Shown: positions 1-14,469 of the stretch, in pieces
How positions within the stretch are numbered: position 1 is the first letter of the stretch
How the letters are laid out: every line of letters starts with the position of its first letter
Assembly: GCF_000300815.1 (NCBI RefSeq)
Contig: NZ_AMRX01000002.1
Span: 1 to 64,000 of the forward strand
Direction: 5' to 3'
Length of the DNA stretch: 64,000 nucleotides
Source: Gayadomonas joobiniege G7
Lineage (GTDB): Bacteria; Pseudomonadota; Gammaproteobacteria; Enterobacterales; Alteromonadaceae
Notes under the pieces: model-generated
Database searches by the model: none
Told to the model about the DNA's origin: nothing
The model's input: the letters and a program-made list of their open reading frames with translations, nothing else
Translations under genes and position numbers: made by a program

Positions 1-77
1 CATCGGCATAAAAGCTCGCACGATACTATTGCGCCTGGGCCACTGGCAATTGTGTTTGGTTGTTTTTTGGGGATTAC

Positions 78-97: not shown

Positions 98-104
98 AAT
101 TTAT

Positions 105-503
105 TTACTCTTTGCCCGTATATAGTTCAAATACCTGTTGTCCGGTAAGTTTTTCGGTTTGGTTGCTAAAGCTGTAATATGTTGGCTTTTCGTCGATGAA
201 AATTTCGTTGGATAAATTAAAGTCTTGATCTTGAAATAGTCCTGCAGTCAATACGTACTCGTTATTTGGTTTTAAATAATAAAATAGATGAGTGCCGCAA
301 TGAGTGCAAAATGCTCGTTCGGCCCATTCAGAGGAGTCGTATCTTTTTATCGTATCGCCACTGATTGTAACATTTGATCCCGCGTGTACTGCGAACATAG
401 GGCCACCGGACCATCGTCGACACATAGCACAATGACATAATCCTAGCTCTGTTGTTGTTTCAGTTTCAATTTCTATTTTTCCACACAAACATTTACCTTT
501 CAT
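105..503 (-). CDS. GFA-family zinc-binding protein (Gfa-like)
   Basis: This 132-residue protein matches the GFA (glutathione-dependent formaldehyde-activating enzyme-like) fold. The zinc cysteines are visible as C5/C7 near the N-terminus, C23/C25/C28 in the CHCxxC motif and C66/C69 in CTHCGTH. Members are small cytosolic proteins; a few help add glutathione to formaldehyde, but most have no proven reaction. It stands alone, with an AAGGA ribosome site just before the ATG. The family assignment is firm; the substrate is unknown, so no gene symbol is given. Confidence 0.85.
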   Translation of the reverse strand: MKGKCLCGKIEIETETTTELGLCHCAMCRRWSGGPMFAVHAGSNVTISGDTIKRYDSSEWAERAFCTHCGTHLFYYLKPNNEYVLTAGLFQDQDFNLSNEIFIDEKPTYYSFSNQTEKLTGQQVFELYTGKE

Positions 504-598
504 TGTCCTTGCTCCAATTAAAAATAGATTAATTTCTATGTTGTTGAGTTAGTTTAGTAAAGAGTAATATGAGAGGCTAAAAAATAGACGTAAAAATA

Positions 599-625
599 AT
601 TGACATGACAGAGGTTGATGTCAAT
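599..625. promoter_or_regulatory. dyad, candidate enhancer site for a sigma-54 activator
   Basis: A perfect 8-bp inverted repeat, ATTGACAT and ATGTCAAT, is separated by 11 bases. Its near edge is about 105 bases upstream of the -24 element of the sigma-54-like promoter, a typical distance for an NtrC-type activator. Further TGACA/TGTCA words occur inside and just after it. The dyad is seen directly; activator binding is inferred. In PEP-CTERM systems the expected activator would be PrsR, which is not encoded here. Confidence 0.45.
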
Positions 626-729
626 AATTTTAGACAAATATTTTGATTTCTGTCAGCTTATTTTACATGTTACTAAATGTGGGGCGCGATTTTTTTATAA
701 CCTATTGATTTTTATTTGATATTTAATTG

Positions 730-744
730 TGGCCTCTATTTTGC
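730..744 (+). promoter_or_regulatory. sigma-54-type -24/-12 promoter of the PEP-CTERM gene
   Basis: The motif TGGCCTC-TATT-TTGC has the invariant GG and GC of the RpoN consensus with exactly ten bases between them, GG at 731-732 and GC at 743-744. It lies 53 bases before the ATG of the PEP-CTERM gene, which predicts a start of transcription near 755. It departs from the consensus at the positions after TGGC. RpoN-dependent PEP-CTERM expression has been described in floc-forming bacteria, so the context fits. Confidence 0.55.
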
Positions 745-797
745 TTAATAGATTTAGATTGAAGTTAATTTTTGTATGGTGTTTCAAGGGGTAAACC

Positions 798-1469
798 ATG
801 ATTAAATCTATTTGTAAGTCTTTATTTGCTGTTTCATTTTTCCTATCTTCTATTTCACATGCATCTTTACTGGTTGAACAGTATGATGACTTTTGGAGTA
901 CAGATGTAAACCAACTGATCAGCTATGCTCAAAATAATAACGCTGACAGCTTTGGCTATTACGATATCATAGATTTTACTGATGATCCCAGCGGATTTGC
1001 TGGTAACATAGCAGGTAGCAATCTATGGCCATCCGCTGGTCAGGCAGGTGTATCAGGCGTTAATCATGATCTAAATAACACCTTTTTTGCTCATATTACA
1101 GGCGACTTTTTTATCGACACGCAGGACACATATACTTTTAAAACATATAACGATGATGGCGTATTTGTTTTTGTTGACGGTAATTTAGTTATTAATGATC
1201 CGACTCTTCATGCTGAAAAACAATTCACAGGTAATATAGATTTGAATGTTGGTATGCATAGTATTGAAGTTTATTTTTTCGAAAATGGCGGTGAAGCCTC
1301 GTTAGAATTAACAGTTGCAGACACAAGTTTAGATTTTACCCACTTTGGTGATGAATCCGGTGTCACTCGACTGGCTAAGGTGCCTGAACCTGCAGGAATT
1401 GCCTTATTTGCACTTGCCCTTGTTGTTACGCTTTATCGTGGACGTAAAAGGATTTCAACCACAAAATAG
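798..1469 (+). CDS. PEP-CTERM sorted surface protein with PA14-like domain
   Basis: This 223-residue exported protein has a signal peptide (about residues 1-22, ending SHA). A PA14/fibro-slime-like beta domain follows at about 85-175, with the typical YTFKTYNDDGVFVFVDG pattern. The C-terminus is a PEP-CTERM sorting tag: VPEP at 195-198, a hydrophobic helix, then RGRKR. Such proteins are processed by an exosortase and attached or released together with exopolysaccharide; PA14 domains often bind glycans. The start is supported by AAGGGG 6-7 bases upstream. No exosortase or polysaccharide cluster lies next to it, so it is an orphan target. Its exact ligand is unknown. Confidence 0.85.
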   Translation: MIKSICKSLFAVSFFLSSISHASLLVEQYDDFWSTDVNQLISYAQNNNADSFGYYDIIDFTDDPSGFAGNIAGSNLWPSAGQAGVSGVNHDLNNTFFAHITGDFFIDTQDTYTFKTYNDDGVFVFVDGNLVINDPTLHAEKQFTGNIDLNVGMHSIEVYFFENGGEASLELTVADTSLDFTHFGDESGVTRLAKVPEPAGIALFALALVVTLYRGRKRISTTK

Positions 1470-1490
1470 GTCGTTCTAACGTATTTAATC

Positions 1491-1517
1491 ACAACGCCCG
1501 TTTAAAGCGGGCGTTGT
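1491..1517. terminator. bidirectional terminator
   Basis: A perfect 10-bp stem (ACAACGCCCG/CGGGCGTTGT) with a 7-base loop lies between two convergent genes, the PEP-CTERM gene and the DoxX-like gene. It is followed by T-rich sequence on the plus side and preceded by an A-rich run that serves the minus side. Confidence 0.85.
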
Positions 1518-1521
1518 TATT

Positions 1522-1944
1522 TTAATTAGTCGCCTTTATGGTGAATAAAGTATCCAGATCTCGCAGCAGATACAATGCCAAACAAGCTGCCCACATGGGC
1601 CATGCTGCAAAAAATAGCATGTTGTCATACGGCTCTAAGTAGCGTGGGAATGAAAATAGTGTTGAAGCCCCATGTATGATAAAAATTAAACCATAACTAA
1701 TACGTTTTTTTATACCTAATAAAAAGGCAAAAACTAAAACCGCCTGCAGCACGCCAATCGCATAAGTTAAAGTAATGCTTAAACCTTCAATCGCGTAAAA
1801 TTTCTCAAAGATCGCAATATTATGTGCGGGATTGACAAATTTGTCGGTCATCCAAACAAACATGACTATAAATACGCCAAGTCTTAGCGCCAATAAACTA
1901 ACTTGAAGTGATTTTAACTGATTTTTTGTTATGTTGGTTTCCAT
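1522..1944 (-). CDS. small four-helix membrane protein, DoxX-like
   Basis: A 140-residue integral membrane protein with about four hydrophobic helices (near residues 18-36, 55-76, 83-100 and 108-127). The layout and the short acidic C-terminal segment LLRDLDTLF resemble the DoxX/DoxD-like superfamily, whose members are often redox-linked, but I see no diagnostic motif. It is divergent from the TonB-dependent receptor across about 170 bp and could share its control region. No function is assigned. Confidence 0.55.
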   Translation of the reverse strand: METNITKNQLKSLQVSLLALRLGVFIVMFVWMTDKFVNPAHNIAIFEKFYAIEGLSITLTYAIGVLQAVLVFAFLLGIKKRISYGLIFIIHGASTLFSFPRYLEPYDNMLFFAAWPMWAACLALYLLRDLDTLFTIKATN

Positions 1945-2116
1945 ATTTAGTCCTATATTTTAAACAACTCTGAAGTAAGACCTTTTGATTTCAGATTTAA
2001 TTTCGAGGAATAAATTTTTTCTGTGGTCTGGCCATGAAATAAATCCCGTATAAGCTCGGTCATCTGATAATAAGTGGCGGTACGTCAACACATAATAATG
2101 CCCATAGGATTGCAAG

Positions 2117-4468
2117 ATGCAAAAAAAGAATAAAATTTTAGTGCTCTCAGCGTTGTCGTTTTGGATATCAGTTTCAGTTCAGGCACAATCAAAAAATGAT
2201 ACTTCCGAGCTCGAAGTTATTGAGGTATACGGCAGTGCAAGCTCGGCTTTAATTAATCAAAAAGATGCAGTTGTCGATGGCCCTTTCGGAGCCAATCTAA
2301 ATGCACTGGAAATCCCAAGAGCCTTAACAAGTTTAAGCAGCGAAACCATGTCACAGCTAAATATCACTGATTTACATGATGTTTTAGCCGTTACTCCAAA
2401 TAGTTATTCTGCGAGTGGTTTTGGTAACCCTAGTTTGCCAAGCCTCCGAGGGCAGCTAGGAGATCTTTTTCAAGATGGCATGCGCCGTCAAGCGGGCAAT
2501 AATGGTTTTGGAGTCCCTATTTCGTTTAATGCTATTGAGCAATTAGACATTGTTAAAGGACCAGCCCCCGTTCTATTAGGTACAACCCAACGCAACGGTG
2601 GTTTTGTTAACCTGATATCTAAAAAGGCACATTTGAACCAGTCGTTTGGTCAATTTAATTTTACCGCCGCTCGCTGGGATCAATATACAGCCCAGCTGGA
2701 TTATAGTCATGCTTTTATGCCAGGTGAGCAAGCTTTACGGGTGAGTTACGAACATCAAGATAAAGGCAGCTTCTACGACCATAGTGCATTTTATAGTAAT
2801 AGTTTTTATATAGCTTATGCCAACCAACTGGATGCAGATACGATTTGGAATTTAAACTTTGAATATTATGATGTTGATTATACTGATAACGCAGGGATTA
2901 ACCGCCCGACCCAAAAGCTAATTGACGATGGGCTCTATATTCAAGGTCAAGGTCGCCAAAGCAATGGCAGCTTGGTCCCAGGCGCAGGTGCAGTCATATC
3001 GCCAACAGGCATAGTTAAAATTGCACGGGATAATGTTTATACTCATCCTGATGACATTAATGATGCGAGTACTTACTTACTACATAGTGACTATAAAACT
3101 GTATTGGAAAATGGGCTTGCGTTTAGAAATTTAAGTTACTTTCAGTATCTGACGCGCGAAGAAATAGCGAACAATAGCTTTGTTGAAATTATTGATGCCG
3201 CTTATACATTTGAAAACAGAAGCGAAATAGACTGGCTTTGGGATGATAAAAATACCTCTACTTTTGCATTAGATATACGCTATAACGATGTTTTAGGTTA
3301 TAGCCAGTTTACAACTGAAGCAGATAACCCAGTTGATCTAACGGGGCCTTTGTCAAATCGTGAAATAGCTTTAACGGAAACACAAATAAACCGCCTCATA
3401 CAACTTCGTCCGGGCGTCTATGTGTCGCCCGGTGGGCAGTACGATTTGGATAATGATGGTAGTGGCGACTTTTCTTTGTCGGACACAACGGATTCGCGCA
3501 GCTTGCAGATCGGCCTTGTTTGGCAGCATCAAAGCCGCCTAAGCGAGAAATTAAAGTTAGATCTGGGTTATCGCAGTGACTTTTATGATGTGGATGCAAA
3601 AGATCCTATCGCACCGGACGGTGCATCGGCAGTCAGTGATTCAACTCAAGAGTGGTTACAGTCTTATCAGGCTAGCCTGAGCTATCAAATATCTCAATCT
3701 TTTAATAGCTACCTCAGTTATAGCCATAACGACTCTACCTCAAATAGTATGGCGGGCGGTCATTCATTAGGGGCTGATAACCTCATCAGCCGACAAAACT
3801 TTGCTACCGAAAACGAGCTATTTGAGGTTGGTTTTAAATATGCCCCAGAAAATACAAACTGGTATTTAGATGCGGCTTTGTTTGAGCAAACGCGTAGTTT
3901 AAGAAACCGTGATGGCAGCAATACTGGCATTATTACTCAAGGCGCGGAGGCACAGCTTTGGTATACCCATGAGAACTATTGGTTTAACTTAAGCTACAGT
4001 TATTTAGATGCGCGTTACGATGACTCAACGTCTGCGCAAGGGACTCGCCAAGTTGCCGATGCGTTCGACAACTCTCGCCCCGATATTATCCAAGGGACTA
4101 GTCAAGGCTCCCCCGCGTATACGGTTTTTGCTGCATCTAATAACAAGGTTCAAGGATTGCCACCCCAGATGCTTGGCTTAAATGGAGGATATTGGGTGAC
4201 TGACAACTGGCAAGTCGGTGCGTCAGCTGTCTATACTAAATCCTATCCACTCGATTATCTTGCAACTGTACAGATACGCGATCAACATAGCTTAAACCTT
4301 AATTCTCAGTACAAAATTACCGCGCAGTCCAGTGTTCGTGTGGATGTTATCAATGCAACAGATCAAGATAATTGGCAACCGGTTTTTGAAGGTGGATATT
4401 TTGGCGCAACTTTAGTGATGCCGAATGAACCTGTACACGCCAAAATCAGCTATCAACATATATTTTAA
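2117..4468 (+). CDS. TonB-dependent outer membrane receptor
   Basis: A 783-residue outer-membrane receptor of the ferrisiderophore type. It has a signal peptide (about 1-23), a plug domain (about 45-165, with the IEQLDIVKGPAPVLLG pattern) and a long aromatic-rich beta-barrel ending in phenylalanine (SYQHIF). It imports a scarce ligand using TonB energy. The next gene starts 20 bases downstream, so it is probably the first gene of a transport operon with an ABC importer (YnjBCD-like). The ligand cannot be read from sequence; a metal chelate or vitamin-like molecule is a guess. I did not find a clear Fur box or riboswitch in the 172 bases upstream. Confidence 0.88.
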   Translation: MQKKNKILVLSALSFWISVSVQAQSKNDTSELEVIEVYGSASSALINQKDAVVDGPFGANLNALEIPRALTSLSSETMSQLNITDLHDVLAVTPNSYSASGFGNPSLPSLRGQLGDLFQDGMRRQAGNNGFGVPISFNAIEQLDIVKGPAPVLLGTTQRNGGFVNLISKKAHLNQSFGQFNFTAARWDQYTAQLDYSHAFMPGEQALRVSYEHQDKGSFYDHSAFYSNSFYIAYANQLDADTIWNLNFEYYDVDYTDNAGINRPTQKLIDDGLYIQGQGRQSNGSLVPGAGAVISPTGIVKIARDNVYTHPDDINDASTYLLHSDYKTVLENGLAFRNLSYFQYLTREEIANNSFVEIIDAAYTFENRSEIDWLWDDKNTSTFALDIRYNDVLGYSQFTTEADNPVDLTGPLSNREIALTETQINRLIQLRPGVYVSPGGQYDLDNDGSGDFSLSDTTDSRSLQIGLVWQHQSRLSEKLKLDLGYRSDFYDVDAKDPIAPDGASAVSDSTQEWLQSYQASLSYQISQSFNSYLSYSHNDSTSNSMAGGHSLGADNLISRQNFATENELFEVGFKYAPENTNWYLDAALFEQTRSLRNRDGSNTGIITQGAEAQLWYTHENYWFNLSYSYLDARYDDSTSAQGTRQVADAFDNSRPDIIQGTSQGSPAYTVFAASNNKVQGLPPQMLGLNGGYWVTDNWQVGASAVYTKSYPLDYLATVQIRDQHSLNLNSQYKITAQSSVRVDVINATDQDNWQPVFEGGYFGATLVMPNEPVHAKISYQHIF

Positions 4469-4488
4469 CCAATACACAAGAGCCCGAT

Positions 4489-6642
4489 ATGCTTAAAAAA
4501 CTTTTTTTAATTTTACTCATAGCCGTTGCTGTATTTTGCTTCTTCCACTTTGACTTGCATACACTATTGACCCTAGATGGCTTAAAATCATCTATGGCTG
4601 AGTTTGATCAGTACAAAGCGCAAAATCCAATTTTAATTACCGCCGGTTTTTTCTTATTTTATGTATTGGTGACGGCACTTTCCCTTCCAGGAGCCGCCAT
4701 ATTAACCCTTGCCGCTGGTGCTCTATTTGGTTTATTAGAAGGGTTAATTATTGTCTCTTTTGCCAGCAGCATAGGTGCTTTATTGGCGTTTTTGGTCGCT
4801 CGGTTTATTTTAAGAGATACGGTTAAAAGCAAATTCCCAGAAAAACTTAAAGCAATCGACAACGGGGTGCAAAAAGAAGGTGCGTTTTATTTATTTACGC
4901 TACGACTGGTCCCTGTTTTTCCATTCTTTTTAATCAACTTGTTAATGGGGGTTACCGCAATACGTAGCTGGACCTTCTATTGGGTCAGTCAGCTAGGCAT
5001 GTTGGCGGGCACAGTTGTTTATGTTAACGCGGGTACACAACTGGCCAATTTAGACAGTTTATCTGGTATTTTATCGCCTAACCTTATTTTATCATTTGTT
5101 TTATTGGGCATTTTTCCTTGGATCGCAAAAGCCATTTTCAGCTTTGTTCAGCGTAAAAAAGTGTATGCAGGTTATAAAAAACCAGCCAAATTTGACCGTA
5201 ATTTAATTGTGATAGGTGCAGGTGCTGGCGGTTTGGTCAGTAGTTATATTGCGGCAGCCGTTAAAGCTAAAGTCACCTTGGTTGAAGCCGGTGAAATGGG
5301 GGGAGACTGTTTAAATTATGGCTGTGTGCCCAGTAAAGCTATTATCAAATCTGCCAAATTGGCTTATCAGCAAAAACATGCAGACAAATATGGTTTAACA
5401 CCAACGGACGCAGCCTTCTCATTTAAAAAGGTAATGCAAAGAGTTCATCAGGTGATTGCTGATATCGCACCGCATGATAGTGTTGAACGCTATACCAAGT
5501 TAGGGGTTGAGGTTAAAAAAGGCTATGCCAAAATGCTGGACCCTTGGACGGTAGAAATCAGCTTAAATGATGGTGGTAAAGAGGTTTTAACCAGTAAAAA
5601 CATTGTTATTGCAACAGGCGCGAGACCTTTTGTGCCACCATTACCGGGTTTAGAAGAAGTTGGTTATGTGACCTCGGATACCTTGTGGCAAAAGTATGCT
5701 GATTTAGAGAGCGTACCAAAGCGCCTTGTGGTATTAGGTGGTGGCCCTATCGGCTGTGAATTGGCGCAAGCATTTGCTCGGCTTGGCAGTGAGGTTAGCC
5801 AAGTAGAAATGGCCGACCGTATTATGTTGCGTGAAGATCCTGAAGTCTCTGAGTTTGCGACTGAGACGTTAAAAAAATCCGGCGTTAATATTTTAACAGG
5901 CCATAAAGCTAAATCTTGCCGTCTTGAAAATGGCACCAAATTGATCACCTTAGAAACGTCGAAAGGTGAAAAAGAAATAGAGTTTGACTCATTAATATGT
6001 GCGGTAGGGCGCTCTGCTCGTTTAGAAGGTTTTGGCTTAAAAGAATTGGGGATAGAAACAGGTCGCACTATTCATACCAACGAATATTTGCAAACTAAGT
6101 ATCCAAATATTTATGCGGTGGGCGATGTCGTCGGGCCTTATCAGTTTACTCATGTCGCAGGCCACCAAGCTTGGTATGCGGCAGTGAATGCTTTATTTGG
6201 GCGTTTTAAAAAGTTTAAAGTGGACTATCGTGTGATCCCTTGGACAACTTTTATCGACCCCGAAGTTGCCAGAGTGGGTTTAAACGAAACCGAAGCAAAA
6301 GAAAAAGGAATAGAGTACGAGGTGACTCGTTTTGAATTGGCCGAGCTGGATAGAGCAATAGCTGATAGTGCAACTGCAGGTTTTATTAAAATATTAACAC
6401 CTCCTGGAAAAGATAAAATACTGGGTGTGACTTTAGTCAGTGAATATGGCGGAGATATTTTGGCTGAATTTGTGCTCGCAATGAAACATGGTCTTGGGTT
6501 AAACAAAATATTGGGCACAATTCACGCATATCCAACTTGGGCTGAAATTAACAAGTATGCAGCAGGGGAGTGGAAAAGAGCCAATGCACCCGAAAAGCTG
6601 CTCACTTGGGTTGAAAAATATCACAACTGGGTGCGCCGATAA
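4489..6642 (+). CDS. TVP38/VTT membrane domain fused to flavin disulfide reductase
   Basis: A 717-residue fusion. Residues 1 to about 220 form a VTT/TVP38-DedA-type membrane domain with several helices. Residues from about 228 onward are a pyridine-nucleotide disulfide oxidoreductase of the mercuric reductase/lipoamide dehydrogenase class: GxGxxG near 243, the redox-active pair C274/C279 (GGDCLNYGC), an NADH-binding glycine motif (VVLGGGPIGCE) and the C-terminal dimer motif HAYPTW near 678. There is no HMA metal-binding domain or C-terminal cysteine pair of classical MerA. It probably passes electrons at the inner face of the membrane. It sits 20 bases after the TonB receptor and overlaps the DUF547 gene by one base. 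Confidence 0.85.
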   Translation: MLKKLFLILLIAVAVFCFFHFDLHTLLTLDGLKSSMAEFDQYKAQNPILITAGFFLFYVLVTALSLPGAAILTLAAGALFGLLEGLIIVSFASSIGALLAFLVARFILRDTVKSKFPEKLKAIDNGVQKEGAFYLFTLRLVPVFPFFLINLLMGVTAIRSWTFYWVSQLGMLAGTVVYVNAGTQLANLDSLSGILSPNLILSFVLLGIFPWIAKAIFSFVQRKKVYAGYKKPAKFDRNLIVIGAGAGGLVSSYIAAAVKAKVTLVEAGEMGGDCLNYGCVPSKAIIKSAKLAYQQKHADKYGLTPTDAAFSFKKVMQRVHQVIADIAPHDSVERYTKLGVEVKKGYAKMLDPWTVEISLNDGGKEVLTSKNIVIATGARPFVPPLPGLEEVGYVTSDTLWQKYADLESVPKRLVVLGGGPIGCELAQAFARLGSEVSQVEMADRIMLREDPEVSEFATETLKKSGVNILTGHKAKSCRLENGTKLITLETSKGEKEIEFDSLICAVGRSARLEGFGLKELGIETGRTIHTNEYLQTKYPNIYAVGDVVGPYQFTHVAGHQAWYAAVNALFGRFKKFKVDYRVIPWTTFIDPEVARVGLNETEAKEKGIEYEVTRFELAELDRAIADSATAGFIKILTPPGKDKILGVTLVSEYGGDILAEFVLAMKHGLGLNKILGTIHAYPTWAEINKYAAGEWKRANAPEKLLTWVEKYHNWVRR

Positions 6643-7451
6643 TGCAGAAAAAATTTATCCTTATACTAAGTTTTATGCTCACCTTAGCGACTCAAAGTGC
6701 TGTTTTTGCGGGTGATAATATTCATAGGCTTTGGGACCAGGTGTTAACCGAAAATGTGATAACTTTGCCTGGTGGGCATGCCACTCAGTTTGACTATCAA
6801 GCGGTTAAGAAAAACCCCAAACAGTTAACTGATTATTTAGCTGCTTTATCCGCCATTAAAAAATCTGATTTTGATCGTTGGGGCAAAGATAAGCGTCTAG
6901 CGTTTTTAATTAATGCTTATAATGCCTTTACCGTAAAATGGATTATTGACCACTACCCAATAGATTCAATTAAAGATACCGGCAGCTTTTTTTCTTCACC
7001 TTGGTCAAAAAAGTTTATCTCTTTGTTTGGGCAAAAAGTCAGCTTAGATACGATTGAGCATGACTGGATCCGAGGCAGCGGAAAATTTAACGATCCTAGA
7101 ATTCATTTTGCCGTTAATTGCGCCAGCGTTGGCTGTCCTGCGCTGCGCGAAGAAGCTTATACGGCGGACAAATTAGCGCAGCAGCTGGCAGCGCAAGCGA
7201 CACGTTTCATGTCTGATCGCTCGAGAAATTATGCGGATAAGGATGTAATATATCTATCTGCTATATTTGATTGGTACGAAGAAGACTTCGAGCAAGGCTG
7301 GTATTCAATAGCTAGCCTTTATCAATTTGTTTTAAAACATAAAAAAGATCTTTCTTTAAATCAAAAACAAACTCAGCAGGTGGTAGATGAGTCTGCCGAG
7401 ATAGATTTTTTAGAATACGATTGGTCCTTAAATGATATCAAATCGAGATAA
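6642..7451 (+). CDS. exported DUF547 protein
   Basis: This 269-residue protein starts with a signal peptide (about 1-23) and carries the DUF547 domain. Its hallmark motifs are the early AFLINAYNAF helix and the NCASVGCPALR cysteine motif near 157-167. The biochemical role of DUF547 is not established; the pair of cysteines and export suggest a periplasmic redox or thiol function, which is inference. The ATG overlaps the stop of the upstream reductase by one base and its end overlaps the solute-binding protein gene by 20 bases, so it is translationally coupled within the operon. Confidence 0.85.
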   Translation: MQKKFILILSFMLTLATQSAVFAGDNIHRLWDQVLTENVITLPGGHATQFDYQAVKKNPKQLTDYLAALSAIKKSDFDRWGKDKRLAFLINAYNAFTVKWIIDHYPIDSIKDTGSFFSSPWSKKFISLFGQKVSLDTIEHDWIRGSGKFNDPRIHFAVNCASVGCPALREEAYTADKLAQQLAAQATRFMSDRSRNYADKDVIYLSAIFDWYEEDFEQGWYSIASLYQFVLKHKKDLSLNQKQTQQVVDESAEIDFLEYDWSLNDIKSR

Positions 7452-8640
7452 TTTAACGCTAAGCTCAGTTGTTAATGGTTTGATATTTGCCCTGTATGTC
7501 ATTTTGCATGCAGCGGCTTTTGCTGAGCAGACCGTTTATTTTTATGCTTGGGGAGGGAGCCCTCAGGTAAATCAGTATTTGCAATGGGCCAAACAAGAGT
7601 TGGCGACCGAAAAAGGTATTCATTTGCAACATGTAAAATTAGCAGATACCAGTGATGCAGTCAGCCGTATCCTTGCCGAAAAAGCAGCTGGTAACCTGCA
7701 AAGTGGAAGCGTTGATTTATTGTGGGTTAATGGTGAGAATTTTGCTTCTATGCTCAAGCATAATTTATTAGCTGAACCCTGGGTAGATCAGCTAAAAAAC
7801 TTTAGCTTAACTCGTCCAGAGAAAAACCCTGCAGTATTAAAAGACTTTGGTATTGCGACCGAGAAGAGAGAGGCGCCATGGGGGAAAGCGGCCCTCGTTT
7901 TTTATTATCACAGCGGGCGGGTAAACCAGCCACCAAAACAACTATCTCAGCTAATCCCTTGGTTAAAAAAATATCCCGCTCGTTTTACCTATCCAAGACC
8001 GCCCGATTTTTATGCAACAAGCTTTTTAAAATATGCGATCAGCGTATTAAATGAGCATCAAGCGGACTCAATCAAACAACAGCTATATCAGCCGGTAACT
8101 GAAAAAAGCTTTAACATATTAGCCGCGCCTCTATGGCATTTTTTAGATGAGCTGCATCCACTTTTGTGGCGGCAAGGCCGTTATTTTCCATCCAGCGGCG
8201 CACAAATGCAGCGGTTAGTAGATGATCAAGCCATCTATCTTTCATATACTTTCACCGCAGCCGAAGTGCCTGCTGCAGTGTCACAATATAACTTGCCCCC
8301 TCAAATTAGAACCTATGCTATGCAAGACGGAAGTTTAAGCAACATTCATTTTGTGGCTATTCCGTTTAACGCTAAGCATAAAACAGCTGCTAAGCAGGTC
8401 GCTGATTTTTTACTATCACCAAAAGCACAAGCAAAAAAACAACAGATAGAGGTGTGGGGCGATCAAACTGTGCTGGATATGAGTGCACTAAACAATAGTC
8501 AAAGGGCGATGTTCAATACCCTTCAAAGACACCCCTCAGCATTGCCCGCAAATACAGAGTTTAAACTTTTAAGCGAGTTGCACCCCAGTTGGGTAGACAA
8601 GCTCAATTCAGCTTGGTTACAACGTTACGGGGTGTTTTAG
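7432..8640 (+). CDS. ynjB: YnjB-like ABC solute-binding protein
   Basis: A 402-residue periplasmic binding protein related to E. coli YnjB. The signal peptide ends near residue 31 (AAAFA), and the mature part opens with VYFYAWGGSPQVNQYLQWA, a typical strand-helix of the extracellular solute-binding fold for thiamine, spermidine or iron-like ligands. The ligand is unknown even for E. coli. It lies directly before its permease and ATPase and overlaps the DUF547 gene by 20 bases. The symbol is by homology of the whole ynjBCD-F order. Confidence 0.82.
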   Translation: MISNRDNLTLSSVVNGLIFALYVILHAAAFAEQTVYFYAWGGSPQVNQYLQWAKQELATEKGIHLQHVKLADTSDAVSRILAEKAAGNLQSGSVDLLWVNGENFASMLKHNLLAEPWVDQLKNFSLTRPEKNPAVLKDFGIATEKREAPWGKAALVFYYHSGRVNQPPKQLSQLIPWLKKYPARFTYPRPPDFYATSFLKYAISVLNEHQADSIKQQLYQPVTEKSFNILAAPLWHFLDELHPLLWRQGRYFPSSGAQMQRLVDDQAIYLSYTFTAAEVPAAVSQYNLPPQIRTYAMQDGSLSNIHFVAIPFNAKHKTAAKQVADFLLSPKAQAKKQQIEVWGDQTVLDMSALNNSQRAMFNTLQRHPSALPANTEFKLLSELHPSWVDKLNSAWLQRYGVF

Positions 8641-10334
8641 TGTCATTTTTATATTATTTATTGTCAGCCCTCAGCCGACCTGTATTGTTTGGCATTATTT
8701 TAGTCCCTGTTGTGGCTGGCTTGTTGGGCGTATTACTGCCGGCGTTTAATTATTTTCCAGCGTTGGGAAGCAGCCAATTTTCGGGCGCAGCATTTACTCA
8801 GCTTTTGGCCACACCCGGGCTACTTAAAATGCTGTGTTTAAGTTTATTTTGTGGTTTTTTGGCAACTTGGATTGCGTTTAAGCTAAATATAATGATTTTA
8901 GCGAGCTTTTATCACACGCCTTGGCTCAATCGAATTGAGCAAGGACTGAGTCCAGTATTAGCTGTTCCCCATGCCGCTGCGGCGATTGCGATTGCATTTA
9001 TTTTAACTCCTTCGGGGTGGCTCAGCCGATTGCTTTCGCCCTGGTTAACAGGGTCAAATATGGTAGGTGACAGTTGGCTACCGAATGATCCTTGGGGGAT
9101 TTCAATTATTATTGGTTTGGTTTTTAAAGAGTTGCCATTTTTGTTATTGATGAGCCTGAGTGTATTAAAACAAGCCAACCTGCGCGTTAGGTTATTGCAA
9201 GAATATAAAGTTGCAATCAGTTTGGGTTATCAAGCCGAAGCAGCTTTTATTAAAGTGATTTTTCCACAGTTATATCCATTAATTCGATTGCCTGTGCTGG
9301 CTGTTTTGGCTTATGCCACTGCCAGTGTTGAGATCCCTTATATCTTAGGCCCCAATAACCCAGCAACATTAGCAGTGACCATTTTAAATTGGTTTAATCA
9401 CAGTGATTTAGAATTGAGGTTTGTTGCAAGTGCTGCTGCTGTATTGCAAATAGTGTTGAGCTTAACAGTTATTTTAATCTGGCTTGGCGGCGAATATTTG
9501 TGGCGACGAGCCCGGTCGTTATTCATGGCGATTAATTTAAATCCTTGGGCGCCTTTTTATCGATTTTGCACAGGGGTAACCCTAATCTTATTTGCCGTCA
9601 TCCTTATTGTATCGCTTGGCGGCCTAGTTGTATGGTCGTTTGCTGGTTATTGGCCGTATCCAGCCGCATTGCCAAACAGTATCACAGGTCTACACTGGCA
9701 AAATGCCTTTACTCAACTCGCAGAGCCAATAAGCAATAGCTTATTGATGGCTGTGAGTAGTAGTTTATTAGCATTGCTGATCAGTTTATTCGCATTAGAA
9801 GCGGCCAGTTATCGCACCGCCACAAAATCTTGGTTAGAGTATTTGATTTATTTACCTTTATTAGTGCCTGGCGTTGCTTTTTTATTTGGTTTGCTCTGGT
9901 TACAGCAAGCCTTGTTCAGTGATGCAGTATTTTTACCTGTGTTAATTAGCCATCTTGTTTATGTTATCCCCTACGTTTATTTATCGCTTGCGGTGAGCTA
10001 TCACAATTTTAATCCAGCACTTATTCGTGTGGCGGCTAGTCTAGGCGCAAAACCATGCAAAGTATTTTGGCGTGTTAAGATCCCCCAATTATTTGCGGCC
10101 ATTATGGTTGCCTTTGCTTTAGGTTTGGCAATCAGTTTAAGTCAGTATTTGCCCACATTGTTAGCGGGCGGTGGACGTTACCCAACTTTAACCACCGAAG
10201 CTGTGGCGCTGGCTAATGGAGCCAGTCGAAGAACCAGTGCTGTGTATGCCATTATGCAAATGGTTTTGCCATTGCTTGGATTTATGTTAGCGGCTTGGCT
10301 ACCTAAGTGGGTATATCGAAAAGCCCAAGCTTAA
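8640..10334 (+). CDS. ynjC: YnjC-like two-core ABC permease
   Basis: An inner-membrane permease of about 564 residues made of two fused permease cores, each with about six helices and an EAA-type loop (for example EYKVAISLGYQ and IRVAASLGAKPCKVFWRVKIPQ). It forms the channel for the YnjB-bound solute. I chose the GTG at 8640, which overlaps the ynjB stop by one base and has GGGGTG just upstream. The open frame extends back to an ATG at 8589, inside ynjB, but that would add a hydrophilic 17-residue tail with no ribosome site. Confidence 0.82.
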   Translation: MSFLYYLLSALSRPVLFGIILVPVVAGLLGVLLPAFNYFPALGSSQFSGAAFTQLLATPGLLKMLCLSLFCGFLATWIAFKLNIMILASFYHTPWLNRIEQGLSPVLAVPHAAAAIAIAFILTPSGWLSRLLSPWLTGSNMVGDSWLPNDPWGISIIIGLVFKELPFLLLMSLSVLKQANLRVRLLQEYKVAISLGYQAEAAFIKVIFPQLYPLIRLPVLAVLAYATASVEIPYILGPNNPATLAVTILNWFNHSDLELRFVASAAAVLQIVLSLTVILIWLGGEYLWRRARSLFMAINLNPWAPFYRFCTGVTLILFAVILIVSLGGLVVWSFAGYWPYPAALPNSITGLHWQNAFTQLAEPISNSLLMAVSSSLLALLISLFALEAASYRTATKSWLEYLIYLPLLVPGVAFLFGLLWLQQALFSDAVFLPVLISHLVYVIPYVYLSLAVSYHNFNPALIRVAASLGAKPCKVFWRVKIPQLFAAIMVAFALGLAISLSQYLPTLLAGGGRYPTLTTEAVALANGASRRTSAVYAIMQMVLPLLGFMLAAWLPKWVYRKAQA

Positions 10335-10344
10335 AGGATATAGA

Positions 10345-10986
10345 ATGTCAGCTTTAGAATTAAAAAATGTGAACATTTTTCGAGAACAAACATTAATGCT
10401 CTCCATTAATCAGGAGGTTGAAGGTGGGCAAGTGCTTACTATTATGGGGCCGTCCGGTGTTGGTAAGTCGACTCTGTTAAATTATGTGGCCGGTATGCTA
10501 CCCAAGGCCTTTACTGCGACAGGAGAAGTTTATTTACAAGGGCATAGAATAGACCAAATGCCAGCTTGGCAGCGCAAAACGGGTTTATTGTTTCAGGATG
10601 CACTGTTATTTAACCATTTAACCGTGGCAGAAAATATTGCTTTTGCGATGCCCAAAAGTGAAGGCAATCGTCGGCAAAAAAGAGAAAAAATTCAAATAGC
10701 ATTAGAGCAAATGTCGCTGGCCCAATTGGGTGATGCAGCTGTGAGTCAACTGTCTGGTGGGCAGCAGGCTCGTGTGGCCTTGTTGCGGGTTCTGTTTAGT
10801 CAACCCAAAGCCATTTTATTGGATGAAGCTTTCAGCAAACTAGATAGTCAGCTAAGGCAATCTATCCGGCAGCTTGTATTTGAGCAAATAAAACAGAAAA
10901 ACTTGCCCGCATTAATGGTCACGCATGATTTAGCCGATGCCAACGCTGCCCAAGGGCCAGTTATTGAGGTGCAATCTTTATGTTAG
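10345..10986 (+). CDS. ynjD: YnjD-like ABC transporter ATPase
   Basis: A 213-residue ATPase that energises the YnjBC importer. Walker A is GPSGVGKS (35-42), the signature LSGGQ is at 136-140, Walker B AILLDEA is at 156-162 and the switch histidine is in VTHDLAD. It starts 10 bases after the permease, behind an AAGGATA ribosome site, and overlaps the next gene by 7 bases. The protein is short, without a C-terminal regulatory domain. Confidence 0.88.
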   Translation: MSALELKNVNIFREQTLMLSINQEVEGGQVLTIMGPSGVGKSTLLNYVAGMLPKAFTATGEVYLQGHRIDQMPAWQRKTGLLFQDALLFNHLTVAENIAFAMPKSEGNRRQKREKIQIALEQMSLAQLGDAAVSQLSGGQQARVALLRVLFSQPKAILLDEAFSKLDSQLRQSIRQLVFEQIKQKNLPALMVTHDLADANAAQGPVIEVQSLC

Positions 10987-11609
10987 ACGCAAAATTAACG
11001 CCTGTGGTAAAAAGCTTATTAACACCGTTAGTTGTGTTATTAAATAAGTGCAAAATAAGTCCAGATCAGCTGACCTTTATTGGCTTTTTGATCGGGTTAT
11101 TAGCGCTGCCTTTGTTAGCCATGCAGCATTGGATGGCAGCGCTTACCGTGATTATTATCAACCGCCTGTTTGATGGTTTAGATGGCCAGTTAGCGCGTTA
11201 TCAAAAAGTCTCTAGTAGTGCCGGTGGCTTTTTAGATATTAGTTTAGATTTTTTATTTTATGCCGCTGTACCACTGGGTTTTGCATTTGCTGATCCAGGC
11301 GGAAATGCACTGCCAGCCGCCATTTTGTTGGTTAGTTTTATTGGCACGGGAAGCAGCTTTTTGGCCTTTGCGATAGCCGCTGAAAAGTACCAAATAGATA
11401 GGCCTCAATTTAAATACAAGAGTTTTTATTACCTGCAAGGGCTCACGGAAGGCACTGAAACCATTTTAATTTTTATTGTATTTTGTCTTTGGCCTGAATA
11501 TTTCCCGATTTTAGCTATCAGCTTTGCGCTCTTGTGTTTTATCACTGTCGTGATGCGAATTTATGGGGGCTATAACACCCTTAAACAACTCAAAGCTAAG
11601 TCGTCATGA
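10980..11609 (+). CDS. ynjF: YnjF-like CDP-alcohol phosphotransferase
   Basis: A 209-residue membrane enzyme with the complete CDP-alcohol phosphatidyltransferase motif Dx2DGx2ARx8Gx3Dx3D at residues 65-90 (D65, D68, G69, A72, R73, G82, D86, D90). Such enzymes join a CDP-linked lipid or alcohol to a second alcohol to form a phosphodiester head group. The alcohol used by YnjF-like proteins is unknown. As in E. coli it follows the ynjBCD importer, but here the rhodanese gene ynjE is absent and the gene overlaps ynjD directly. Confidence 0.82.
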   Translation: MLDAKLTPVVKSLLTPLVVLLNKCKISPDQLTFIGFLIGLLALPLLAMQHWMAALTVIIINRLFDGLDGQLARYQKVSSSAGGFLDISLDFLFYAAVPLGFAFADPGGNALPAAILLVSFIGTGSSFLAFAIAAEKYQIDRPQFKYKSFYYLQGLTEGTETILIFIVFCLWPEYFPILAISFALLCFITVVMRIYGGYNTLKQLKAKSS

Positions 11610-12397
11610 TGACTGAAGCCGCTTGGCGCCTAAGTATTTTTTTATTGGTGTTTATTGCGATGGCCGTGTGGCAAACGGTTAAACCCGCACGGCAGGCTCC
11701 GCTGCCTCGTTGGAGGCATTGGCGGGGTAACTTGTTGCTTTTATTAACAGCAGCCGCTACTGTGCGTCTGATTATGCCTGCGGGTTTGGCCGGGGTCGCT
11801 ATAGTTGCGGATGAACGTCAGTGGGGGCTGTTTAATCAATTAGATCTATTCCCTAGTGTGACTCTTATACTCAGCTGTCTAATTTTAGATTTCGCTATTT
11901 ATTGGCAGCATAGGTGGATGCATAAATTTCCGCTACTGTGGAAACTACATAAAGTGCACCATGCCGACAGTCAGGTTGATGTCAGCACAGGTTTAAGGTT
12001 TCATCCAATAGAAATTGTTTTAAGTTTGTTTTATAAGGCGGTTTGGGTCTTGGTATTTGGCATGCCAGTGTTGGCCGTTTTATTATTTGAAATTGCACTC
12101 AATGCGTTTGCTATTTTTAATCATGCAAATGTTCGTTTAACCAACAAGTGGGAAAAGTATGCCCGTTTTTTGGTCATCACCCAAAGGTTGCATCGTATTC
12201 ACCATAGCCAAAAAAAATCAGAAATGAATAGCAACTTCGGCTTTAGCCTTGTTTGGTGGGATCGGTTATTTAGCAGCTATAGCGCGCAGGCTTCTGAAAA
12301 CGACAGGCAGATTAAACTGGGTTTACGACAATCATTCGATGCAAACAAGAACGCCGATTTATTTAACATGCTGAAAATGCCATTTGCAAAAAAATAA
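11606..12397 (+). CDS. fatty acid hydroxylase / sterol desaturase family membrane protein
   Basis: A 263-residue di-iron membrane enzyme of the fatty acid hydroxylase superfamily. The histidine boxes are HRWMH (H102, H106), HKVHH (H115, H118, H119) and HRIHH (H196, H199, H200), with further histidines at 132 and 173. About four transmembrane helices place the boxes in the cytosol. It would hydroxylate or desaturate a lipid acyl chain or other hydrophobic substrate; the substrate is not known. The start overlaps ynjF by four bases (ATGA), so it is coupled to the phosphotransferase. A second ATG follows immediately. Confidence 0.82.
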   Translation: MMTEAAWRLSIFLLVFIAMAVWQTVKPARQAPLPRWRHWRGNLLLLLTAAATVRLIMPAGLAGVAIVADERQWGLFNQLDLFPSVTLILSCLILDFAIYWQHRWMHKFPLLWKLHKVHHADSQVDVSTGLRFHPIEIVLSLFYKAVWVLVFGMPVLAVLLFEIALNAFAIFNHANVRLTNKWEKYARFLVITQRLHRIHHSQKKSEMNSNFGFSLVWWDRLFSSYSAQASENDRQIKLGLRQSFDANKNADLFNMLKMPFAKK

Positions 12398-12472
12398 CCC
12401 CTATTCGGTGTGCCTGTTTGTTAGCTAAAAAGTTCGCTAAAATAGGTGAAATTCATTTCGGAGAAGCTGCTA

Positions 12473-13102
12473 ATGTCTGATTGTTGTGCAATAGAAGCAA
12501 AAAATCGACGAGAACGTCAATTGCTGTGGACTGTGTTAGTTTTAAACGCGGTGATGTTTTTTGTCGAATTTACAGCCGGCTGGTTGGCACGTTCAAGTGG
12601 TTTGTTAGCCGATTCACTGGATATGTTAGCTGATGCTATGGTTTACGCCATTAGTTTATATGCCGTTGGTAAAGCGATTAAACAAAAAGCTAAAGCAGCG
12701 ATGGCAAACGGCATTTTACAGTTTTCGCTGGGGATACTCATTTTACTTGATGTTGGTAAACGAATCTATTTTGATGAGTATCCAACGACCGAAATCATGA
12801 CATGGATTTCGTTGCTGGCATTAACCGTAAATATCATCTGTTTTACGATGCTTTACCAGCACCGCCAAGGGGATATTAATTTGCGGGCCAGTTGGATTTG
12901 TTCGCGAAATGATATGATAGCTAATGTCGGTGTTTTGTTAGCCGCCGTACTTGTGGTTAATTTAAATAGTGCTTGGCCTGATCGTTTAATAGGGCTGTTC
13001 ATCGCTGCGATTATTGTTCGCTCTGCTATCCGTATTATCAGTGATGCTAAATACGCGATTAAACATAACAAAGAATTTAGCTCAGATAGCTGTTGCGGTT
13101 AA
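12473..13102 (+). CDS. CDF-like cation transporter with cysteine-rich ends
   Basis: A 209-residue membrane protein of the cation diffusion facilitator type with about six helices but no cytosolic C-terminal domain. Helix 2 keeps the two acidic metal-site positions (SLDMLAD), whereas helix 5 has NDMIAN in place of the usual HxxxD. Cysteine pairs lie at both ends (SDCCAI and SDSCCG), which could bind a soft metal. The ATG at 12473 has GGAG nine bases upstream; the frame is open back to a GTG at 12446 without a ribosome site. It is 75 bases after the operon above and may have its own promoter. The metal is unknown. Confidence 0.75.
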   Translation: MSDCCAIEAKNRRERQLLWTVLVLNAVMFFVEFTAGWLARSSGLLADSLDMLADAMVYAISLYAVGKAIKQKAKAAMANGILQFSLGILILLDVGKRIYFDEYPTTEIMTWISLLALTVNIICFTMLYQHRQGDINLRASWICSRNDMIANVGVLLAAVLVVNLNSAWPDRLIGLFIAAIIVRSAIRIISDAKYAIKHNKEFSSDSCCG

Positions 13103-13116
13103 CAGATATCTGATAT

Positions 13117-13149
13117 TGGCACCCGATATTTTTGCGCAGGCGGGTGCCA
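13117..13149. terminator. hairpin between convergent genes
   Basis: A 9-bp stem (TGGCACCCG/CGGGTGCCA) with a 15-base loop separates the CDF-like gene and the convergent dehydrogenase gene. There is no long T run, so termination is likely but weakly supported. Confidence 0.5.
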
Positions 13150-13158
13150 TTGGATGAA

Positions 13159-14469
13159 CTAATTTTTTATCAGCTTAAATATTTTACCTGTATCCCCATC
13201 AGGGCCAACATTTTCTGATGTGAGAACCAAAACATCTCCACTTGCTGTTTGCGCAAAGCCTAAAATTTTGTCCTTTAAGCTAGGCACCTGAAGCTCAGCA
13301 AAATCATTTTCACCAGTCAGCACAAATAAGCGACCGCGTGCTAGTTTGTGGCTCATCCATTCAGCGAAGATAAACTTATCTTTTAATGCGTTGATTGGGC
13401 CCTGATAAACATGACCCGCAATGATAGAAATACCTTCTCCTCGGTCGTATTCAACATTTGGATCAGTTAATCCAGCCGGTAAATCAGCTTTATCGGCTGG
13501 AAACACAAAGCCGCCGCCTGTACCATTCATGTCAAAAGCAAATGACCCTTCTTTTAGCGGCCAACCTAAATTTTCGCCGCCTTTAACTAGCGTCAGTTCT
13601 TCAACGCTATTTTGTCCAACGTCAGCAACATAATAGGTACCTGAGTGATGACTGATACGGTATGGGTTTCGCACACCATAAACAAAAATTTCTGGGATAA
13701 ACCCTTTTTTATTTATAAATGGATTATCTTTTGGAATGCCATAGTTCTGGTTGCGGCCATCTTTAGCTAATGGATCAATACGTAAAATAGAACCTAATGG
13801 ATGGCTTGGGTCTTGGCCATTACCACCTTCTACATGACCAGGTCCCTGATCATCGGCTCGACCGCCATCGCCCAGTGACAATAGCAGCATCTTTTGATCA
13901 TCAAAAATGAGGGTGCCGCCATTATGGTTAAATTGAGGTTGGGCAACGCGTAAAATTTCGCGAGGTGCTTCTGTTTTGATTTTAATGCCAGTGGTTTTGT
14001 CTGGGCGGGTTTGCCACTCTTGAACAACACCATGATGGTTCGCTTTAGCACCGTCTTTTAACTCAAAATCAGCTTGGCCTTTAGTGGGCTGCGAGCTATA
14101 GGTATACATTAAACCATTACTCGAAAAATCCGGGTGAAAAGCCAAACCCAACAAACCTCGTTCGTCAAAACCACTGCGCATAGACACTAAAAGATCAGAT
14201 AGGTCGGCAACTAGCGTCAGTTTTTCAGAGCTCAAATTTAAACTATACACTTTTCCAATTTGATCTAAAACGAATACAAAATTATCCAAGCCGGGTGCAT
14301 AAGTACCAGTCACAGGTGAGGTTAAGCCAGATGCAATGGCTTTCATATCTAGTTTAATCTCACTGCTGGTGATACTTTTTTTAATAGGATCAGATAATTT
14401 TAGATCATCGTTCGCTAGACTAAATAGAGGAAGGGCTATCAACAAGCTGGTCGCGATTGGTTTTAACAT
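13159..14469 (-). CDS. PQQ-dependent aldose sugar dehydrogenase (soluble, exported)
   Basis: A 436-residue exported beta-propeller protein of the glucose/sorbosone dehydrogenase family (like E. coli YliI). Visible family motifs include DERGLLGLAFHPDF, FNHNGGTL with the active-site histidine, SLGDGG and VYGVRNPYR. These enzymes oxidise aldoses in the periplasm using PQQ. The start at 14469 gives a clean signal peptide (MLKPIATSLLIALPLFSLA) with AAGGA upstream; the frame is open further to 14550 but that extension would put residues before the signal. PQQ synthesis genes are not in the window. Confidence 0.85.
   Translation of the reverse strand: MLKPIATSLLIALPLFSLANDDLKLSDPIKKSITSSEIKLDMKAIASGLTSPVTGTYAPGLDNFVFVLDQIGKVYSLNLSSEKLTLVADLSDLLVSMRSGFDERGLLGLAFHPDFSSNGLMYTYSSQPTKGQADFELKDGAKANHHGVVQEWQTRPDKTTGIKIKTEAPREILRVAQPQFNHNGGTLIFDDQKMLLLSLGDGGRADDQGPGHVEGGNGQDPSHPLGSILRIDPLAKDGRNQNYGIPKDNPFINKKGFIPEIFVYGVRNPYRISHHSGTYYVADVGQNSVEELTLVKGGENLGWPLKEGSFAFDMNGTGGGFVFPADKADLPAGLTDPNVEYDRGEGISIIAGHVYQGPINALKDKFIFAEWMSHKLARGRLFVLTGENDFAELQVPSLKDKILGFAQTASGDVLVLTSENVGPDGDTGKIFKLIKN

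Follow-up and report, generated by a model that had tools for sequence, protein, structure and literature searches.

An eight-gene envelope operon of Gayadomonas joobiniege G7 as a possible import-based counterpart of the arsenosugar (ArsS) pathway

Introduction

Two described systems lie closest to the locus presented here. One is the arsenosugar pathway, whose enzyme ArsS is described as adenosylating arsenic (PMC12159101), and whose seaweed compound is described as a 5'-deoxy-5'-dimethylarsinoyl riboside (PMC6656958). The other is the E. coli set ydjXYZ-ynjABCDEF, for which two papers report direct activation of ydjXYZ-ynjABCD by FNR (PMC3688515) and a slight BaeR-linked induction of ynjA and ynjB (PMC2731931). 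With partial coverage of the literature, the E. coli ynj and ydj genes were encountered only in work on regulation, structure prediction or listings. We analyzed 64,000 nucleotides of Gayadomonas joobiniege G7 (contig NZ_AMRX01000002.1, positions 1 to 64,000; "the window"), in which eight open reading frames (ORFs), all on the plus strand, occupy 2117-12397. They encode a TonB-dependent outer-membrane receptor, a VTT/DedA-type membrane domain fused to a flavin adenine dinucleotide (FAD) disulfide oxidoreductase (the VTT-flavoprotein), a DUF547 protein, the importer YnjBCD, the CDP-alcohol phosphotransferase YnjF, and an FA_hydroxylase/sterol-desaturase-type membrane enzyme. To our knowledge, neither YnjBCD nor YnjF has an assigned substrate.

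What is new here is that the VTT-flavoprotein fusion is found also in a subset of ArsS clusters. Because some genomes have the flavoprotein, the DUF547 protein and the FA-hydroxylase next to ArsS and others have them next to YnjBCD, and because no genome of the 398 sampled has both ArsS and YnjB, we tentatively read the operon as an import-based counterpart of the ArsS pathway, substrate and lipid steps included, with rather less than even confidence in the reading as a whole.

Results

A flavoprotein fusion shared by YnjB loci and ArsS clusters

The fusion gene (4489..6642, plus strand) encodes a VTT_dom domain (82.9 bits) followed by Pyr_redox_2 and Pyr_redox_dim domains (210.4 and 95.8 bits). 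Its redox motif is GGDCLNYGC, and both redox cysteines are kept in 63/63 homologues compared. The C-terminal sequence is HAYPTWAE, whose H...PT..E pattern we take to resemble that of disulfide reductases. In locus L078, TIGR04283 (266 bits, cut-off 182) and TIGR04282 (157 bits, cut-off 134), both named arsenosugar-biosynthesis glycosyltransferases by NCBI, were found between YnjBCD and the VTT-flavoprotein, and for this reason ArsS (model TIGR04167) was sought across the phylum. It was present in 116 of the 398 phylum genomes at E 1e-60, with 114 over the cut-off, and in none of the 51 with YnjB, where about 15 would be expected with descent disregarded. A co-occurrence of ArsS and YnjB in the same genome was considered and rejected, as the opposite was seen throughout the 398 genomes.

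We fetched 20 ArsS loci, chosen for spread over families. Three of them (L113, L114 and L117) carry ArsS, the VTT-flavoprotein, TIGR04283 and TIGR04282 in a row, and the window fusion matches the L113 protein at 63% over the FAD part and 61% over the VTT part. In L114 an in-frame TGA separates the VTT part from the FAD part, and each is read as an ORF of its own; selenocysteine at this position was considered and rejected. The flavoprotein was also noted near ArsS in L118, L120, L121, L122 and L127, the last with a DUF547 gene as well, and L116 has an FA-hydroxylase, 50% to that of the window over part of its length, directly before ArsS. L128 and L130 hold only a more distant FAD protein, without VTT. 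The window flavoprotein is of the kind that adjoins ArsS in some, not all, ArsS clusters.

Across the 398 genomes the full fusion was found in 58, of which 16 have YnjB within 15 kb, 5 have YnjB elsewhere, 12 have ArsS within 15 kb, 13 have ArsS elsewhere and 12 have neither. By genome this amounts to 21 with YnjB, 25 with ArsS, none with both and 12 with neither, where 9 with both would be expected if the two were independent (P 1e-7, uncorrected for descent). Ten genomes with weaker flavoprotein matches (E 1.8e-170 or weaker) were left out, five with YnjB, three with ArsS and two with neither. Per genome, the fusion was associated with YnjB at an odds ratio of 5.9 (p 4e-7) and with ArsS at 2.1 (p 0.018). 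Because it occurs in 25/116 ArsS genomes and 21/51 YnjB genomes, the fusion recurs in both settings without being standard in either. A flavoprotein tree of 63 sequences (39 from YnjB loci or genomes, 15 from ArsS, 9 other; quick search, SH-like approximate likelihood ratio test (SH-aLRT) only) mixes the contexts, with seven YnjB/ArsS switches. Within family f124, the flavoproteins of G909, which has ArsS, and of G318 and G799, which have YnjB, group together (SH-aLRT 94).

Further families were found on both sides. The DUF547 gene comes next after the flavoprotein gene in L134, L135, L149 and L151, and in L136 one gene stands between them; the genomes of L134, L135 and L136 have ArsS elsewhere, and that of L151 has YnjB elsewhere. 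A DUF3047 cluster, of which one member was scanned, occurs in YnjB loci L073, L076 and L094 and in ArsS loci L117, L118, L120 and L121. TIGR04283 exceeded its cut-off in 7 of 51 YnjB genomes, 8 of 9 ArsS genomes and 0 of 20 controls, the controls being YnjB-free genomes of the window's family and order among those listed and not a matched sample. It lies within 5 kb of YnjB in four genomes, all of family f186, and 11.5 kb away in G799, and seven further YnjB genomes gave matches below the cut-off (93-104 bits). TIGR03169 at E 1e-40 was present in 17/51 YnjB genomes, 5/9 ArsS genomes and 0/20 controls; eight of the 17 matches in YnjB genomes lie in open frames longer than 700 amino acids, perhaps SelD fusions. 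ArsM-model matches of at least 160 bits were seen in 2/4 ArsS genomes and 0/8 YnjB genomes, with 0/12 over the cut-off, and the ArsM-like genes of the ArsS loci are likewise under the ArsM cut-offs. In the window's genome itself, the best ArsS match reached 26.3 bits (cut-off 300), TIGR04283 gave no match at E 1e-25, and an ArsM-like gene was represented only by a generic partial match (60.5 bits against a cut-off of 263).

Plasmids carry both versions of the neighborhood. An Acinetobacter portensis plasmid has the run arsS, VTT-flavoprotein, DUF547 (47%), TIGR04283, TIGR04282, ArsM-like gene and phosphate transporter, followed by mtnP and a sterol desaturase 43% to that of the window. The Burkholderia glumae island has DUF2282, DUF692, a DNA-binding-domain protein, DoxX and the VTT-flavoprotein, then TIGR03169-like, TIGR04282 and TIGR04283 genes and, on the other strand, mtnP; arsS follows after 10 kb, and a distant DUF547 (28%) is present as well. 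In Citrobacter amalonaticus the same run from DUF2282 to the VTT-flavoprotein is followed by a TIGR03169-like gene, YnjB, YnjC, YnjD and YnjF. AhpD-like, haloacid dehalogenase, sigma and TetR genes are common to the Citrobacter and Burkholderia islands, and SulP and universal-stress genes to those of Citrobacter and Acinetobacter. An unannotated Cupriavidus record gave by tblastn an ArsM-like gene (34%), YnjA (46% to E. coli), ArsS, FAD, VTT, TIGR04283, TIGR04282 and MTAP, together with a distant DUF547; its YnjA homologue lies next to ArsS, so the E. coli-type YnjA occurs on the ArsS side as well as on the YnjB side. No genus was common to the plasmid records with ArsS (all 52 listed) and those with YnjB (60 listed of 72). 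The plasmid annotations name the fusion by its domains only. One Edwardsiella plasmid carries the flavoprotein with none of these partners in the annotated stretch, and Paracoccus seriniphilus has the flavoprotein and YnjF alone in a stretch that stops at the record's edge. Plasmids with the VTT-flavoprotein, YnjF and YnjBCD came from hosts isolated from Fucus and from Grateloupia, which is suggestive only, with no control sample compared.

Some side observations concern these plasmids. Among L165, L170 and similar plasmid records, the YnjBCD/VTT-flavoprotein island of Citrobacter sits on a conjugative plasmid, and flavoprotein and YnjB matches equally identical to the query were found on Klebsiella, Salmonella, Providencia and E. 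coli plasmids, a number of them from milk or cattle. An Ilyobacter plasmid carries a YnjA homologue (L177:6980-7549) among multicopper oxidase and heavy-metal-sensor genes.

A nucleoside transporter as a third partner

In L141 and L142, from another family than that of the window and from genomes with neither ArsS nor YnjB, we found the order TIGR03169, VTT-flavoprotein, small membrane protein (DoxX-like, below the cut-off), nucleoside transporter and YnjF. The L142 transporter scored 219 bits to PF07662 (cut-off 32.3) and 286 bits to TIGR00804 (below the cut-off of 442). A Sphingopyxis FD7 plasmid has a TIGR03169-like gene, the VTT-flavoprotein and four small or thioredoxin genes, then a TonB receptor, a nucleoside transporter (70% to that of L142), YnjF and a peroxidase-related enzyme; it was the only one of 72,556 plasmid records with a transporter of this type at E 1e-60. 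A nucleoside importer in place of the maker of an arsenical nucleoside is, by analogy, what a scavenging version would be expected to look like. Also without ArsS or YnjB in the genome, L149 has DUF547, TIGR04282 (205 bits) and an ArsM-like gene.

Two distant loci have an 8-oxoguanine deaminase gene near the VTT-flavoprotein and YnjF, at L073:3968-5368 (666 bits) and L148:11595-13076 (711 bits), with a cut-off of 532. At L144:8012-8977 and L145:7922-8884, in genomes with neither ArsS nor YnjB, the VTT-flavoprotein has a different radical SAM protein beside it. The scores of this protein, 93-99 bits against the Rv1681 family model and 40-48 against ArsS, are all below cut-off, and it is possibly another enzyme forming a carbon-arsenic bond; L144 has TIGR04282/04283-like (by BLAST) and ArsM-like genes there as well.

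Conservation and modularity of the gene set

YnjB was found in 53/196 genomes of the window's family, 11/40 relatives, 14/369 genomes of the class and 51/398 of the phylum, and in only 2/8 genomes of the window's genus, its own included, so that it is not fixed even within the genus. Loci were fetched from 24 of the 52 other same-family genomes with a YnjB match, with genes counted at matches of at least 70 bits. All eight genes are collinear on one strand in 11 of the 24 and present in any orientation in 14, while receptor, VTT-flavoprotein, YnjBCD and YnjF share one strand in 21. Singly, the receptor was counted in 22 loci, VTT-flavoprotein in 23, DUF547 in 18, YnjB in 24, YnjC in 23, YnjD in 24, YnjF in 23 and FA-hydroxylase in 19. 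Conservation of the eight-gene set is far beyond chance; a lack of conserved association in relatives, which the first-pass annotation of this DNA had named as grounds for giving up its operon, was not encountered. Exceptions within the family include L050, which has no receptor, and L062, where YnjBCD is accompanied by no more than a weak FA-hydroxylase match.

The boundary drawn in that annotation was right for the eight genes and missed a probable ninth member. A DoxX-like small membrane protein (1522..1944, minus strand; PF07681 DoxX 19.0 bits, under the cut-off of 23.6) diverges from the operon, and 12 of the 24 same-family loci carry such a gene, always on the strand opposite to the operon. 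In Alteromonas lipotrueiana (L002) the eight genes are collinear and the DoxX-like gene is present too; this locus came from a genome scan of four loci in total, as did a Shewanella metagenome-assembled genome (L001) in whose stretch the receptor and DUF547 are absent. All eight are likewise collinear on named plasmids of Catenovulum adriaticum and two Pseudoalteromonas strains. G007, of the window's genus, has the same genes in the same place as the plasmid of Catenovulum adriaticum, a strain whose recorded source is algae. In L082, of another family, the whole set occurs in a different order with the DoxX-like gene inside the operon. A cupin/AraC-type gene lies upstream of the receptor in L098, L099 and L109 (Pfam was run on the L099 copy) and is a candidate regulator of the system; L099 and L109 also have AhpD-like peroxidase, DoxX-like and DUF547 genes in a divergent run.

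Outside the window's family the gene set is modular. Of the set, YnjBCD and YnjF alone are present in L003 (a short contig), L071, L072, L079, L085, L086 and others. YnjBCD occurs with YnjF not detected in L052, L062, L081, L083, L084, L087, L088, L089, L095 and others, and YnjB is alone of the set in L054, L056 and L070. A Clostridium locus (L004) combines a rhodanese, VTT, YnjB, two YnjC-like genes, YnjD and YnjF.

Genes of the operon and their surroundings

The ORF list of the window places the eight genes where the first-pass annotation had them, and the tight packing that it described is borne out. In gene order the junctions are a gap of 20 bases, overlaps of 1 and 20, an overlap between ynjB and ynjC, a gap of 10, and overlaps of 7 and 4, that is, five overlaps among seven junctions. 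The receptor (2117..4468, plus strand, as are all that follow) has both a plug (PF07715, 39.4 bits) and a barrel domain (PF00593, 48.3 bits) over their cut-offs, with no NCBIfam and no PDB sequence match at E 0.001. The DUF547 protein (6642..7451; PF04784, 96.8 bits) has a signal-like N-terminus by eye and one PDB sequence match, at chance level. As one histidine and two cysteines (H155, C160 and C165) are invariant in 30/30 aligned sequences, the protein may act as a thiol enzyme or bind a metalloid. The periplasmic substrate-binding protein YnjB (7432..8640) scored 459.9 bits to NF008633 against a curated cut-off of 203, and a search of PDB by sequence found no solved relative. It is contiguous with the long permease YnjC (8640..10334; PF00528 BPD_transp_1, 30.3 bits) and the ABC ATPase YnjD (10345..10986; PF00005, 107.8 bits), as expected of a YnjBCD importer. 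The mechanical YnjC ORF spans 8589-10334 from a TTG at 8589; its start is likely the GTG at 8640, overlapping the ynjB stop by one base.

YnjF (10980..11609; PF01066 CDP-OH_P_transf, 49.7 bits) belongs to the CDP-alcohol phosphotransferases, whose motif is D-x2-D-G-x2-A-R-x8-G-x3-D-x3-D, here intact by eye as DGLDGQLAR-x8-GGFLDISLD. Its nearest NCBIfam model is archaetidylinositol-phosphate synthase (75.9 bits, cut-off 180) and its nearest PDB entries are 4mnd and 4o6m; no curated NCBIfam model exceeded its cut-off to give an acceptor class. The FA_hydroxylase/sterol-desaturase-type enzyme (11606..12397; PF04116, 100.5 bits) shows HxxxH, HxxHH and HxxHH clusters by eye.

Between the DoxX-like and receptor genes, the intergenic control region (1945..2116) held no convincing promoter or palindrome. 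A shared operator before the receptor gene was rejected, with no palindrome enriched in 27 upstream regions by simple count, as was riboswitch control (thiamine, FMN, cobalamin), since positions 1-14000 matched no Rfam family up to E 1. Upstream of the operon, a terminator-like hairpin was seen at 1491-1517, and a consensus scan found no terminator between 12397 and 12446; promoter-like and terminator-like sites are about as frequent in the window as in shuffled sequence. ARAGORN found no tRNA or tmRNA gene in the window. Past the operon by 48 bases, 12446-13102 (plus strand) encodes a short CDF-type cation transporter with CC pairs near both ends (MSDCC..., ...DSCCG), which as a query gave no match in the relatives' loci. 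On the other side, 798-1469 (plus strand) encodes a PA14-domain protein whose end (VPEPAGIALFALALVV...RGRKR) resembles that of a PEP-CTERM sorted protein.

Discussion

Taken by its parts, the proposed reading varies in strength. The operon is probably functionally equivalent to the ArsS side, to judge by the shared families. That the imported substrate is an organoarsenical riboside is a tentative proposal, somewhat less likely to hold than to fail, and a lipid end product made by YnjF is more doubtful still. The first-pass annotation had outlined three steps, entry of an outside molecule, redox treatment and attachment to a membrane lipid. This outline fits the families and the intact motifs, while uptake, reduction and the lipid product are what we infer from them. 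Some ArsS clusters contain members of the VTT-flavoprotein, DUF547 and FA-hydroxylase families as well, a sharing that had been missed and that gives the outside molecule a candidate identity.

In the proposed mechanism, the receptor would give TonB-driven outer-membrane entry to a scarce 5'-modified riboside, most likely an algal arsenosugar, which YnjB would capture and YnjCD carry inward. The VTT-flavoprotein would pass NAD(P)H electrons through FAD and its cysteine pair to pentavalent arsenic or a thiol carrier. YnjF could then attach phosphatidyl, taken from CDP-diacylglycerol, to the sugar or to its glycerol tail, and the resulting arsenosugar-phospholipid would be modified by the FA-hydroxylase. 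The VTT domain (through lipid movement, the role that we assume for DedA relatives), the exported DUF547 protein and the DoxX-like protein may act at the membrane. The host is marine and probably alga-associated, and such bacteria may scavenge arsenic-containing sugars instead of making them. A wider picture, unlikely to be right in full, is that bacteria on or near seaweed import algal arsenosugars into the same downstream machinery as the ArsS route and build arsenic-containing phospholipids, with ArsS, YnjBCD and the nucleoside transporter as interchangeable sources of one intermediate and E. coli ydj-ynj as a stripped relative. With partial literature coverage, no paper was found joining arsenosugar with TMEM64, DUF547, sterol desaturase, CDP-alcohol, ynjB or TVP38, and nothing related on DUF547, TVP38 and TonB together.

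Several observations weigh against the arsenosugar interpretation. Fusion and ArsS are only weakly associated over the 398 genomes (odds ratio 2.1, p 0.018). Among the 116 ArsS genomes the fusion is limited to 25, in 12 of them within 15 kb of ArsS, and most ArsS clusters lack it, including 10 of the 20 loci fetched, where no flavoprotein match was seen within the stretch (L115, L116, L119, L123, L124, L125, L126, L129, L131 and L132). On the importer side, the full fusion is absent from 30/51 YnjB genomes, many YnjBCD loci stand alone or only with YnjF, and 12 of the 58 fusion genomes have neither ArsS nor YnjB. Well-supported branches of the tree force only two changes for the YnjB-adjacent group, and three branches are long. 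TIGR04283 lies within 5 kb of YnjB in one family only, f186, and both it and TIGR03169 are absent from the window's genome. The word arsenosugar is NCBI's name for both glycosyltransferases and may itself be neighborhood-based. E. coli has the ynj set, yet we know of no arsenosugar handling by it. The plasmid runs of DUF2282, DUF692 and DoxX and the YnjA among multicopper oxidases allow for another metal.

Other substrates were weighed with these points in mind. The operon might instead salvage nucleosides or ribosides that are 5'-modified but free of arsenic (methylthio-, deoxy-, seleno- or thio-), in which case the treatment of a 5'-modified ribose would be all that it has in common with the ArsS clusters. 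We consider this unlikely. It would suit the nucleoside transporter found with the flavoprotein and YnjF, the methylthioadenosine (MTA) phosphorylase of ArsS islands, the 8-oxoguanine deaminases of L073 and L148 and the rhodanese in the sets of E. coli, L053 and Clostridium. Ordinary salvage would, however, have no need of a disulfide reductase or a lipid transferase, and the eight window genes include no nucleoside-cleaving family. YnjF comes nearest to CDP-alcohol transferases that use inositol phosphate, below their cut-offs, and YnjBCD with YnjF is the pair most widely found without the rest, both of which would follow if the importer brought in inositol phosphate or a sugar phosphate for an ordinary phosphatidyl-polyol lipid. 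That account leaves the flavoprotein and its pairing with either ArsS or YnjB unexplained, and we consider it very unlikely.

It appears quite unlikely that the operon serves to take up and handle a soft metal, free or bound to a ligand (copper, gold, chalkophore-like), with the flavoprotein acting as a reductase of the MerA kind. The TonB receptor would fit this account, as would the DUF2282-DUF692-DoxX genes beside the flavoprotein on plasmids, which we take to be copper/gold genes, and the Ilyobacter YnjA beside multicopper oxidases. The flavoprotein is MerA-like at 383.5 bits to TIGR02053, under the cut-off of 454.45, but it has no cysteine near its C-terminus, where MerA carries a pair, and MerA mercuric reductase was rejected as its identity. 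DUF692 and DUF2282 are absent from the window operon, and YnjF, the FA-hydroxylase and the nucleoside transporter would be left over. An island for defense against oxidants or reactive electrophiles, in which the flavoprotein would reduce a product of thiol stress and the importer bring a protective metabolite, is highly improbable. It draws on the AhpD-like, haloacid dehalogenase, extracytoplasmic-function (ECF) sigma and AraC/TetR neighbors on plasmids, some also with thioredoxin and CcdA, on the number of isolates from milk or cattle, and on scores of 208 and 229 bits to the RclA and hypothiocyanous-acid-reductase models. Those scores are far under the cut-offs of 740 and 650, none of the plasmid neighbors is in the window operon, and the isolate sources may mirror sampling.

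The arsenosugar interpretation offers a testable substrate class for the YnjBCD importer, the YnjF lipid transferase and the VTT-flavoprotein fusion. If true, it would suggest how marine bacteria recycle arsenosugars, with a route to arsenolipids, and open the uncharacterized E. coli ydj-ynj operon to experiment. Should arsenic prove to be the wrong element, a shared intermediate would still be indicated by the exchange of ArsS for an importer.

Compared with known systems, the last gene of the operon has the FA_hydroxylase domain in common with OlsE-type ornithine-lipid hydroxylases, and it was rejected as one of them, lying far below the OlsE cut-off (NF052566, 84 bits against 475). The resemblance to E. 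coli ydjXYZ-ynjABCDEF noted in the first-pass annotation holds for the YnjBCD and YnjF families and the VTT proteins, with ydjXYZ-ynjABCDE confirmed and ynjF on the other strand. In E. coli, however, the VTT proteins are not fused to a flavoprotein, YdjY, YnjA and YnjE are present, and receptor, DUF547 and FA-hydroxylase are absent from the ydj-ynj stretch. With a subset of the ArsS clusters, the window shares homologues of its VTT-flavoprotein fusion, DUF547 and FA-hydroxylase/sterol desaturase, and other YnjB loci add TIGR03169, DUF3047 and both glycosyltransferases. One ArsS plasmid has a DoxX-named gene, in which similarity to the DoxX-like gene of the window was not detected. The window differs in having the TonB receptor, YnjBCD and YnjF instead of ArsS, the ArsM-like gene and TIGR04283. 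In the Sphingopyxis FD7 plasmid a concentrative nucleoside transporter takes the place of YnjBCD and extra genes separate flavoprotein and receptor, yet the plasmid has, as does the window, a receptor, an inner-membrane importer, the VTT-flavoprotein and YnjF.

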